Of a stretch of DNA of 64,000 bases, positions 31,170-34,038 are shown piece after piece. Within the stretch, counting starts at the first letter, position 1. The number at the start of each line of letters is the position of its first letter. A program made the position numbers and the translations under genes. The notes under the pieces were generated by a model. It was not told the origin of the DNA and did not search any database. It saw only the letters and a program-made list of their open reading frames with translations. This DNA is from Halorubrum persicum (GTDB taxonomy: Archaea > Halobacteriota > Halobacteria > Halobacteriales > Haloferacaceae). The stretch covers positions 1-64,000 of the forward strand of contig NZ_NHOA01000033.1 in the NCBI RefSeq assembly GCF_002727125.1, in the 5' to 3' direction.

Positions 31170-33587
31170 ATGGACGCAGAGCGCAGAGCGGAGATAACCG
31201 GGTGGGACGCCCGGGAGTTCTCGGACGGCTTCGAGGGTCTCAGGCGTCTCGTCGACCGGGGGTTCTCCGGCGCGGTGACGAACGGCGCGGGGTGGCTGTT
31301 CGTGTTCGAGGGCCGCGTCGTCGGCACCGCCGACGCCGACCTCGACGCGTTCGCGGACGCCTCGGGAACGATTTATAAAGCACCCGACGAGGCTCTCCCG
31401 GTCCTGTTCGCCATGCAGGAGCGGGGTGGAGAGCCGCGAGCGCAGTACTACACGAACGACACGCCGCTCTCGGAGGCCGACCGAAAGCTCTCGCAGGGCG
31501 GATTCACCGGCTACGTCGAACTGTCGGAGAACGTGCTCTCGGGCGACTACTACGTCACCTACACCGCGGGCGAGTCGATGGCCGCGGCGTACGTCGGCAA
31601 CTCGCGCCGGCTCGAAACCGGCGAGGACGCCTTCGAGCTGGCCGACGACGAGGTCGGGATCTACACCGTCTACGAGGTCGACCTCGACGTACAGGAGATC
31701 CCCGAACCCAGTACCTCCGGTGGCGCGGGCGCCGTGGCCGCGGAGCCGACCGCCGACGCGGAGACAGCCGCCGATGAGGACAACGGCGACGACCACGCCG
31801 AACGCGGGGCCGATGGGGATCGCACCGGCGAGGGCCGCCCCGACGAGGACCGCATCAGCGGGGATCGAACCGACGAGGGCCGCACCAGCGAGGATCGAAC
31901 CGACGAGGGCCGAACCGCCGGCGACGCGACACCCGGCAGTGAGGCCGATGAGGAGCCCTCCGACGAACGGACCGTTGACGAGCGGACTGCCGGCGGGACG
32001 GCTTCCGACGAGAGAGCCGCCGGTGGGCCGACCACCGACGGCGAGACGACCGCTGACGGCGAGACGACCGCTGACGGCGAGACGACCGCTGACCGCGAGG
32101 CGGAGCCGACATCCCGCGGATCCACGAAGCGATCCGACGAAGCGCCGCCGTCGGCACAGAGGCGGGCGAACGAGACGAACGGGACCGGCGGTGGCGCGGA
32201 CACGGTCGAGCGGCCGGCGGCCGAGAGCGGAAACGGGGGCTCCTCCGGTACGGAGGCGCCGAGTAGCGGTCCTGCTGCGACCGACGCACCCGATTCTGCG
32301 GGATCTCCCCCGAACGACGACGTGTTCTCCGAGGAGGAGCAGTGGCGCGAACAGAAGTCGATCCCCGCGCTCGACCCGTCCGAAGCGAGCGATCCGCCGG
32401 GTGGTCGAGGCCGAAGCGGGCCCGACCCGAACGGAAGCGGACGGACCCAGAGTGAACCTGACGACCGGCGTCGATCCGGGGCAAGCGACCGAAGCAGGGG
32501 CGCCGGCGCCGCCGCTGACGACGATCGGTCTCCAGAGCCGCGCTCCACCGATCGGGACCGATCGAATCGCTCGGCCGTCTCACAGCGCGCTTCGAACGCG
32601 GGCGCAGGCGAGCGCGGCTCGCCCGACGAGCGGCTCGAACAGCTCCGCGACGAGCTCGAAGCCGCCGAGAAGAAGCAGGCGTCGCTGGCGGCGGAACGCG
32701 ACAGACTCGCCACCGACCGCGACGAGATCGCCGCCGAGCGGGACGAGCTCGCGAGCGAGGTCGATCGGCTGGAGTCGGAGCTGTCGACGGCTCGCGAGGA
32801 GCGCGACCGGCTGGAGTCGGAGCTGTCGACGGTCCGCGACCGGCTTCCCGAGAGCGACCGGACGCTCTCCCCGGCGGAGGCGCGGAGCGGAACGAACCTC
32901 TTCGTCAGGTACGAGTCGAAGGGCGGCGCGACGCTCGAAGACGCCCACGACGGGGCGGTCGACCGCGACGCGCTCCGCGAGAACCTGCGGATCGAACACC
33001 ACACCAGCTTCGAGACGGACGGGCTCGCCGTCGACGGTCGCCCGTACGAAGCGTTCCTGGAGGACACCATCGAGTACGGCTTCACCCGGTGGCTCGTCGA
33101 GGACCTCCCCTTCGAGGTGAGCAGCACCGGCAACCAGAGCGTGCTCCGCGACCTCTACGACGCCATCCCGGAGGTCGACCGCGCGGAGATCGGCGGCTCC
33201 GTGTCGATCGCGATCAGAGAGGGCGGGGAGGAGACGCGCGAGCAGCGCTCGTTCGACCTGGTGTTGCGCGACCGGATGGGGAACCCGCTGTTCGTCGCCG
33301 ACCTCAACGACAGCCGCGACCCGACCGCCGAGGGGACGTTGGAGTCGCTGGTCGAGAATGGCCGCGACATCGCCGGATCGAACGAGCAGTTCGCCGCGGC
33401 GTTCGCGGTGACGGAGAGCTTCTTCGAGCCGGGCGCGCTCGAGACCGCGAGCGACGCGGTCGGCGGCGGGCTGTTCAGCCGCTCGAAGCGCGCGAGCTTC
33501 GTGAAACTCTCCCGCAAGCGCGGGTACCACCTCTGTCTGGTCGAGGCGCGCGACGGCGGCTTCCACATGACGGTCCCGGACCTGTAG
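31170..33587 (+). CDS. Long haloarchaeal protein: N-domain, disordered linker, coiled coil, C-domain
   Basis: 805 residues. The N-terminal globular domain (about 1-175) begins EITGWDAREFSDG and contains FTGYVELSENVLSGDYYV. A very acidic, low-complexity linker (about 180-480) includes tandem repeats. A coiled coil with heptads of Leu and Arg/Glu spans about 482-565. A globular C-terminal domain (575-805) has QRSFDLVLRDRMGNPLFVADLND at 693-714. I believe it is the haloarchaeal DUF7527 family, of unknown function. The C-domain resembles the central part of PD-(D/E)xK nuclease folds, but the catalytic Lys position is Asn713. No membrane segment. Confidence 0.8.
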   Translation: MDAERRAEITGWDAREFSDGFEGLRRLVDRGFSGAVTNGAGWLFVFEGRVVGTADADLDAFADASGTIYKAPDEALPVLFAMQERGGEPRAQYYTNDTPLSEADRKLSQGGFTGYVELSENVLSGDYYVTYTAGESMAAAYVGNSRRLETGEDAFELADDEVGIYTVYEVDLDVQEIPEPSTSGGAGAVAAEPTADAETAADEDNGDDHAERGADGDRTGEGRPDEDRISGDRTDEGRTSEDRTDEGRTAGDATPGSEADEEPSDERTVDERTAGGTASDERAAGGPTTDGETTADGETTADGETTADREAEPTSRGSTKRSDEAPPSAQRRANETNGTGGGADTVERPAAESGNGGSSGTEAPSSGPAATDAPDSAGSPPNDDVFSEEEQWREQKSIPALDPSEASDPPGGRGRSGPDPNGSGRTQSEPDDRRRSGASDRSRGAGAAADDDRSPEPRSTDRDRSNRSAVSQRASNAGAGERGSPDERLEQLRDELEAAEKKQASLAAERDRLATDRDEIAAERDELASEVDRLESELSTAREERDRLESELSTVRDRLPESDRTLSPAEARSGTNLFVRYESKGGATLEDAHDGAVDRDALRENLRIEHHTSFETDGLAVDGRPYEAFLEDTIEYGFTRWLVEDLPFEVSSTGNQSVLRDLYDAIPEVDRAEIGGSVSIAIREGGEETREQRSFDLVLRDRMGNPLFVADLNDSRDPTAEGTLESLVENGRDIAGSNEQFAAAFAVTESFFEPGALETASDAVGGGLFSRSKRASFVKLSRKRGYHLCLVEARDGGFHMTVPDL
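31863..31922 (+). repeat. Two-copy 30-bp repeat in the 805-residue protein gene
   Basis: GATCGAACCGACGAGGGCCG recurs at 31863 and 31893; each 30-bp unit encodes DRTDEGRT plus two residues. Confidence 0.75.
32037..32090 (+). repeat. Three perfect 18-bp tandem repeats
   Basis: GACGGCGAGACGACCGCT three times, encoding DGETTA units in the disordered linker of the 805-residue protein. Confidence 0.85.
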
Positions 33588-33732: not shown

Positions 33733-34038
33733 TCAGTTCTCGAGCTCTGCGGCGTCGTCGATCCGCATGGAGCCGAGCTTGTCGACAGTCTCGTCGAGCT
33801 TCTCGTCGAGCTCGTCGACGAACTCGTGGGTCCGCTCGGTCGTGATCGCTCCCTGGCTGGACGGCTCGATGAGGTTCTCCTCCTCGAGCACGCGCAGCGA
33901 GTAGCGGACCTTGTGATGGGGGTACCCCGTCTCGTTCGACATCTTCACGATGCCGATCGGCTCGTTTTCGATGACCATCCGCAGGACTTGGAGGTGACGT
34001 TCCAGCATGTCTACCTCCTTCTCTAGTCGATCTATCAT
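33733..34038 (-). CDS. Winged-helix transcriptional regulator
   Basis: 101 residues. A coiled N-terminal helix MIDRLEKEVDMLERHLQVL is followed by a winged-helix core. GIVKMSNETGYPHHKVRYSLRVLEEENLIEPSSQGAITT covers helix 2, recognition helix and wing, but in pieces each looks like a MarR/ArsR-type fold. A C-terminal helix follows (EFVDELDEKLDETVDKL). It looks like a dimeric DNA-binding protein; its targets are unknown. TTTTAAAC lies 27-35 nt before the start. Divergent from purA, 271 nt away. Confidence 0.85.
   Translation of the reverse strand: MIDRLEKEVDMLERHLQVLRMVIENEPIGIVKMSNETGYPHHKVRYSLRVLEEENLIEPSSQGAITTERTHEFVDELDEKLDETVDKLGSMRIDDAAELEN

Follow-up and report, generated by a model that had tools for sequence, protein, structure and literature searches.

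A haloarchaeal DUF7527 protein with a predicted Mrr-type PD-(D/E)xK fold that lacks the catalytic lysine, and with a conserved peptide in its acidic linker

What might a haloarchaeal protein do with a nuclease-like C-terminal domain in which the catalytic Lys has been replaced? The question is raised by a gene in a stretch of 64,000 nucleotides of Halorubrum persicum DNA (contig NZ_NHOA01000033.1; the whole stretch is referred to here as the window), for which an initial annotation, made from the sequence letters, had proposed an 805-residue protein acting as a structural or chromatin-related scaffold or as a degenerate nuclease. The claimed open reading frame is real: it occupies positions 31170 to 33587 of the forward strand, begins with ATG, encodes 805 residues, and is present as one copy in its own genome. 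That domain belongs to an existing Pfam family, PF24371 DUF7527, which is catalogued without a function; the match (E 2e-110, 368.3 bits) spans profile positions 1 to 237 of 237 and lies far above the curated cut-off of 27 bits. Neither this family nor a conserved motif in the linker had been recognized in the initial annotation, and the N-domain, the linker motif, and the two-domain origin of the protein lie outside the Pfam entry as seen. The reading that we favor, and that we hold to be moderately probable, is of a noncatalytic adaptor, a pseudo-nuclease scaffold. The features to which the argument refers are as follows.

31170 to 33587, forward strand: the 805-residue protein, consisting of an N-domain, an acidic disordered linker, a coiled coil, and the DUF7527 C-domain
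31170 to 31706, forward strand: N-domain, residues 1 to 179, from hhalign comparison with the DUF2226 N-module; the second half (residues about 93 to 172) reads as a DUF2226-type (PATAN/DUF4388-like) module and the first half (about 15 to 95) as a possible second copy
31707 to 32624, forward strand: disordered, acidic linker (residues 180 to about 485), from the composition of the whole span up to the C-domain
32319 to 32378, forward strand: conserved short linear motif DVFSEEEQWREQKSIPALDP, residues 384 to 403, from a loose pattern compared with shuffled linkers
32625 to 32846, forward strand: coiled coil, residues about 486 to 559, from a heptad score with shuffles and from sub-cut-off Pfam coiled-coil matches
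32865 to 33584, forward strand: DUF7527 domain with a predicted PD-(D/E)xK-like fold, residues 566 to 805, from the profile match, an AlphaFold2 model, and structure and profile alignment
33255 to 33257, forward strand: Asp696, the putative counterpart of the catalytic Asp in motif I, kept by 80 of the 82 distinct members
33300 to 33308, forward strand: Asp711-Leu-Asn713 where catalytic PD-(D/E)xK nucleases have (D/E/Q)-x-K, with Lys at 713 in none of the 82 distinct members
33733 to 34038, reverse strand: convergent neighbor encoding a 101-residue winged-helix-like protein, given as context and not part of the DUF7527 protein

DUF7527 was found in 79 of 392 sampled genomes of the phylum and, among the genomes listed, as one copy each in 77 of 81 genomes of the same order, a distribution that argues against a chance observation. 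The two remaining genomes belong to a distant family (f32); the class containing them (237 genomes) yielded six DUF7527 matches at an E value of 0.1 or better, five of them in f32, one of which is a short piece, and one weak match elsewhere (E 0.049). With a profile of the N-domain, which had been described as a second conserved globular part, the protein was recovered from 78 of the 99 genomes sampled in the order, a 79th match (E 0.83) being left out of the count, and conservation of this part is thereby borne out. Genomes lacking an N-domain match cluster, all eight sampled members of genus g31 being among those without one, and some of the 21 such genomes are incomplete, while one (G547) does carry the linker motif. 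As 21 of the 99 sampled genomes have no match, the gene is not universally required; it is conserved without being indispensable. Searches of viral contigs with the C- and N-domain profiles gave no confirmed relatives, and no C-domain relative was found among phage records. No paper was found in the open literature searched for DUF7527, PF24371, DUF2226, or DUF4388 with Roadblock, and the architecture and linker motif are undescribed as far as these searches show.

The fold of the C-domain was addressed with a predicted structure, since placement of its strands outside a restriction-endonuclease-like core had been named as the result that would contradict the proposed nuclease resemblance. The AlphaFold2 model (pLDDT 86.2, pTM 0.86) was obtained with a 28-sequence alignment; the structure-prediction alignments contained 27 of 33 relatives for the C-domain and 29 of 32 for the N-domain, taken from named genome contigs, and alignments A3 (46 rows) and A4 (33 rows) are diverse selections out of 84 and 63 domain rows, respectively. 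The top Foldseek matches of the model are PD-(D/E)xK proteins at E 2e-3 and TM values of 0.2 to 0.3, with none at E 0.001 or better and with unrelated folds among the lower rows. VIA placed AF1548 first (Z 8.1, rmsd 3.8, 110 aligned) and also returned NucS/EndoMS (Z 7.5, 7.2, and 6.3), Cdn1 (Z 6.9 and 6.1), Can2 (Z up to 6.1), and RPB5 (Z 4.6 to 5.2); judged from entry names, its best 50 entries presumably all contain a restriction-endonuclease-like domain. Z scores of about 8 can be reached by unrelated folds or through a common arrangement, and sequences were therefore compared as well. Profile-profile alignment of the C-domain core with Mrr_cat scored 30.1 (probability 47%, P 2e-4; the Mrr profile has 29 rows, with the seed protein counted twice), against a maximum of 17.3 for 30 column-shuffled Mrr profiles and 9.2 to 12.0 for four further controls (three profiles from the N-domain or DUF2226, and the reversed profile). 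With the comparison restricted to the four distant f32 members the score was 35.0 (probability 80%), a value that has no shuffle control of its own. The window domain gives no direct match to Mrr_cat (PF04471, cut-off 21 bits); 4 of 46 members do so at E 10, the best at E 0.006, with 15.6 bits in two members seen, and a PDB sequence search with the C-domain profile returned two matches only, both with E values above 0.4. Taken from the model and the profile alignment, the C-domain is predicted to adopt a PD-(D/E)xK fold of Mrr type, with a restriction-endonuclease-like core, and the result named as contradicting the proposed resemblance was not obtained. The likeness to Mrr_cat, AF1548, and NucS/EndoMS comprises the predicted core fold and the motif-I Asp, with the addition, for Mrr_cat, of an aligned (V/I)T-x-S-x-F...A stretch after the active-site strands, whereas the domain differs from Mrr_cat and other PD-(D/E)xK nucleases in lacking the Lys, in its degenerate second acidic residue, and in falling below the Mrr_cat cut-off.

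Between the two domains lies a region (residues 180 to 569) in which 93% of residues are disorder promoting and the net charge is -49, a composition that bears out the proposal of a disordered linker. Linker length among 52 haloarchaeal proteins ranges from 209 to 510 residues, and net charge from -20 to -86. Two f32 proteins, by contrast, have 10 residues where the linker would be, as does L116, and since distant relatives possess both domains with almost no linker, the tether seems to have been added in the haloarchaea. A further observation on the linker is a tandem repeat at 32037 to 32090, in which three DGETTA copies make up residues 290 to 307. Within this otherwise unconserved stretch a peptide with the core E-x-x-W-R-x4-I-P-[SA]-[LI]-D-P (residues 389 to 403) recurs. 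A loose form of the pattern was present in 68 of 88 linkers, f40 included (66 of 86 distinct linkers, the window gene having been entered twice and L027 being identical to L038; L071 was excluded because its C-domain match is split), and in 0 of 1,760 shuffled linkers. The 20 linkers without it include 14 in which the core persists in a related form (for example L-E-T-R-S-I-P-S-L-D-P) or as a Trp-containing variant, three from broken or split frames (L047, L050, and L056), and three with neither (L070, L075, and L169). When 30 linkers selected for diversity from the 88 were compared in sliding stretches of 14 residues, the motif peptide ranked first, with an excess of 34.7 versus 16.3 for the coiled coil. 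Searched at the DNA level in 99 genomes, a strict pattern gave a single match in each of 48, and a reversed control gave none; when coordinates were compared by eye, 47 of these matches lay on the same strand as the N-domain and no more than about 1.5 kb downstream of it, and the 48th, in G547, lay at the expected gene position about 1 kb from the winged-helix-like gene, so that none of the 99 genomes had a strict match outside the position of the DUF7527 gene. The full motif is not universal, as family f3 and some others lack the Trp. The pN/pS values, 0.38 for the motif (all pairs, 67 loci) and 0.51 for the C-domain (150 random pairs), say little, since the two sets of pairs differ and are close to saturation.

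The coiled coil that had been placed immediately before the C-domain was recovered by the heptad score, at about residues 486 to 559: when the last 90 residues of each linker were shuffled 50 times, the real score was reached at most twice in 73 of 76 proteins, repeats kept in, a count to be read with the fact that the score rejects Pro- and Gly-rich windows, so that many shuffles fail outright. Three f40 members (L155 to L157), from assemblies of 0.9 to 1.1 Mb that are 58 to 78% complete, have linkers of 142 to 149 residues in which the motif is present and a heptad stretch is absent by this score. Since these members lack the heptad stretch and the distant ones lack both motif and heptad, pairing through a coiled coil would not be a general property of the family.

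The gene neighborhood, which had been proposed as a check across haloarchaea, was surveyed and gave no functional hint. Of 83 loci that extend far enough (repeats kept in), 76 have a convergent winged-helix-like gene no more than 1 kb downstream, usually followed by purA, whereas the upstream genes vary, with a NUDIX gene and TFB in Halorubrum and UPF0058 or others elsewhere; because of this variability the neighborhood was rejected as a guide to function. The winged-helix-like protein is encoded in 97 of 99 genomes, including genomes without DUF7527, and the two proteins therefore need not act together; at five loci that have this gene and no DUF7527 (L165 to L168 and L170), no domain remnant was detected at E 1e-3. 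In its own right the winged-helix-like protein is conserved: the best match to the window copy is 75 to 100% identical in 92 of 97 genomes and 63 to 71% identical in five, the first 65 residues are almost invariant in loci aligned by eye, and its Pfam helix-turn-helix matches all fall below the cut-off.

These observations bear on the possibility that the protein is a structural component associated with DNA or the chromosome, in which a pseudo-nuclease dimer would bind DNA while the N-domain or the docking peptide bound a cytoskeletal, membrane, or replication partner. Mrr-type fold ancestry, the coiled coil, and a long tether with a docking-type motif are what such a protein might be expected to display, but the acidity of the linker throughout the 52 haloarchaeal proteins, the variable upstream neighbors, and a downstream context of a winged-helix-like gene and purA speak against it, and we regard the proposal as rather unlikely. 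For the chromatin-related role raised in the initial annotation, nothing beyond the ancestry of the fold points in that direction.

The identity of the N-domain is relevant to another alternative. The window N-domain has no Pfam match at E 10, a setting at which HMMER filters drop most weak matches, and a PDB sequence search with its profile gave no match. Its AlphaFold model is poor (pLDDT 62.6) and the fold matches are unremarkable, so structure was set aside as a guide for this domain. In hhalign the second half of the domain aligned with the N-module of DUF2226 with a probability of 95.6% (P 1.2e-8, score 49.1), the best of 20 shuffles scoring 15.0, whereas the first half reached 28% (score 24.7), compared with 15.6 for the reversed profile and no more than 12.3 in 20 shuffles. 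Among f32 members the halves aligned with each other at a probability of 63% (score 28.1, 30 shuffles not exceeding 16.0) and with DUF2226 at scores of 24.9 (shuffles at most 17.5) and 30.7 (shuffles at most 17.3, the alignment covering just 26 columns); in the haloarchaeal profile, half against half scored 16.4, less than the best shuffle (20.6), and an internal repeat is not supported there, so that the tandem reading depends upon the distant f32 members. On this profile evidence the N-domain is assigned a DUF2226 (PATAN/DUF4388-like) module, with possibly two such modules in tandem. It falls below both Pfam cut-offs: for DUF2226 (PF09987, 22 bits) the distant member L065 reaches 14.8 bits and the window N-domain gives no match, as is also the case for PATAN/DUF4388 (PF14332, 25 bits). 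DUF2226 proteins themselves match DUF4388 weakly, all three that were scanned doing so below the cut-off, with a best E value of 6.8e-5 and 23.3 bits for L087. A Roadblock/LC7-like gene adjoins 15 of 18 distinct DUF2226 genes (loci L087 to L109 and L111), and the four of these neighbors tested against Pfam were confirmed.

PATAN-domain regulators of bacteria are described as binding the pilus ATPase PilB (PMC7690835, PMC10519157). A polarity or motility adaptor resembling these binders of the type IV pilus motor could thus be envisaged from the relation of the N-domain to DUF2226, the weak DUF2226 match to DUF4388, and the adjacency of DUF2226 to Roadblock/LC7-like genes in most loci. The PATAN identity of the N-domain is, however, two steps removed, motility genes are absent among the neighbors named, and Roadblock/LC7 had no match at E 0.001 or better in any of the 99 haloarchaeal genomes, which indicates that the partnership with DUF2226 does not carry over to them. 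The N-domain resembles DUF2226 and DUF4388 as a related module and differs from them in its subthreshold scores and in the absence of a Roadblock partner among the haloarchaea searched; we consider a motility adaptor improbable.

The active-site positions bear on whether the C-domain is a pseudo-nuclease or an enzyme. The segment FDLVLRDRMGNPLFVADLND represents residues 695 to 714 and includes Asp696, Asp711, and Asn713 as they were first numbered. Alignment with Mrr_cat equates Asp696 with the catalytic Asp, Asp711 with Gln/Glu, and Asn713 with Lys, which reproduces the register in which the Asn had been said to replace the catalytic Lys. Among 84 C-domain rows, 82 are distinct (the window gene is represented by both L001 and L013, and L027 equals L038). 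The motif-I Asp is retained, position 696 being Asp in 80 of the distinct members and Ala in 2. Position 711 is Asp in 46, Asn in 18, Glu, Thr, and Ala in 5 each, Arg in 2, and Met in 1, and is therefore acidic in 51 of 82, while position 713 is Asn in 72, Asp in 6, Thr in 2, and Ser and Ala in 1 each. No distinct member has Lys there, nor has any of the 84 rows with the two repeats included, and hence the (D/E/Q)-x-K of catalytic PD-(D/E)xK nucleases is absent; nine further members inspected by eye (L116, L117, L155 to L157, L160 to L162, and L169) likewise have no Lys at this position. Arg716 is found in 80 of the 84 rows, and in four distant relatives position 711 is Arg while position 713 is either Thr or Ala. 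BamHI and BglII are active PD-(D/E)xK enzymes in which Glu and Gln, respectively, stand in place of the Lys, and its loss is consequently not proof of inactivity. A still-active nuclease with an altered site, in which Asn713 would substitute for Lys, Asp696 and Asp711 would serve as metal ligands, and the N-domain would act as a regulator, could draw on these precedents and on the constancy of Asp696, Asn713, and Arg716, but the replacement of Asp or Glu at 711 by Asn, Thr, Ala, Arg, or Met, the two Ala residues at 696, and the substitutions in the four distant relatives amount to variation that is unexpected for the active site of a single-copy family, and we judge this explanation very improbable.

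Loss of catalysis by the C-domain is therefore the reading that we infer from its sequence. Pseudo-nucleases with a PD-(D/E)xK fold are a known kind of protein, and RPB5 provides an example of nonenzymatic use of the restriction-endonuclease-like fold; the RPB5 N-terminal domain and the C-domain would be alike in having this fold without catalysis, although the likeness is one of fold alone and nothing points to an RNA polymerase subunit. Of the two roles first suggested, the degenerate nuclease is well supported by sequence and predicted fold, while the scaffold is plausible on architectural grounds.

For the noncatalytic adaptor we propose an arrangement that takes as its starting points what was computed (the fold match and motif register, the lack of Lys, the N-domain's relation to DUF2226, and the conservation of the peptide), and from which we infer dimerization, binding roles, and every partner. 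The C-domain, with its Mrr-type PD-(D/E)xK fold, would have lost the catalytic Lys before the family spread and now probably offers a surface to which nucleic acid or protein binds. Many PD-(D/E)xK nucleases are paired, and in most haloarchaea the coiled coil just before the C-domain probably pairs two chains. The N-domain, with its one or two PATAN/DUF2226-like modules, would constitute a second binding head, and the long acidic tether would permit the two heads to reach separate partners while presenting the W-R-x4-I-P-[SA]-[LI]-D-P peptide, which may dock a third partner or fold back on one of the heads. More speculatively, and with considerable doubt on our part, the protein may be a haloarchaeal long-reach linker, derived from an old PATAN-like plus pseudo-Mrr protein that gained the acidic tether, the docking peptide, and, in most cases, the coiled coil. 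If this were true, a head that binds nucleic acid or protein would be connected with a remote regulatory head as well as with a third partner, one that recognizes the peptide. Testable questions about a single-copy gene of most haloarchaea that Pfam lists without function follow from the fold and the missing Lys and, most of all, from the docking-type motif, and a motif so conserved within an otherwise unconserved acidic linker offers a direct handle on its partner.

A few individual records merit separate mention. In two f46 genomes (L158 and L159) the N-domain matches lie in short frames at contig ends, of 214 and 94 residues, which may be cut contigs or stand-alone N-domains, as both readings fit. 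A contig whose record assigns it to an Elusimicrobia genome bin (L062, PWEK01000087.1) carries a Halorubrum-like copy of the DUF7527 protein beside a NUDIX gene, and in view of this likeness and this neighbor it is probably a misbinned haloarchaeal contig. The single match among plasmid records is to a large replicon of Natronorubrum bangense (L154, NZ_CP031306.1, 1 to 10169): DUF7527 and purA are both encoded on this 828-kb molecule, which is recorded as a plasmid, together with a 306-bp opposite-strand gene that occupies the winged-helix position, as judged by position alone, and thus the block sits on a second replicon in this species.
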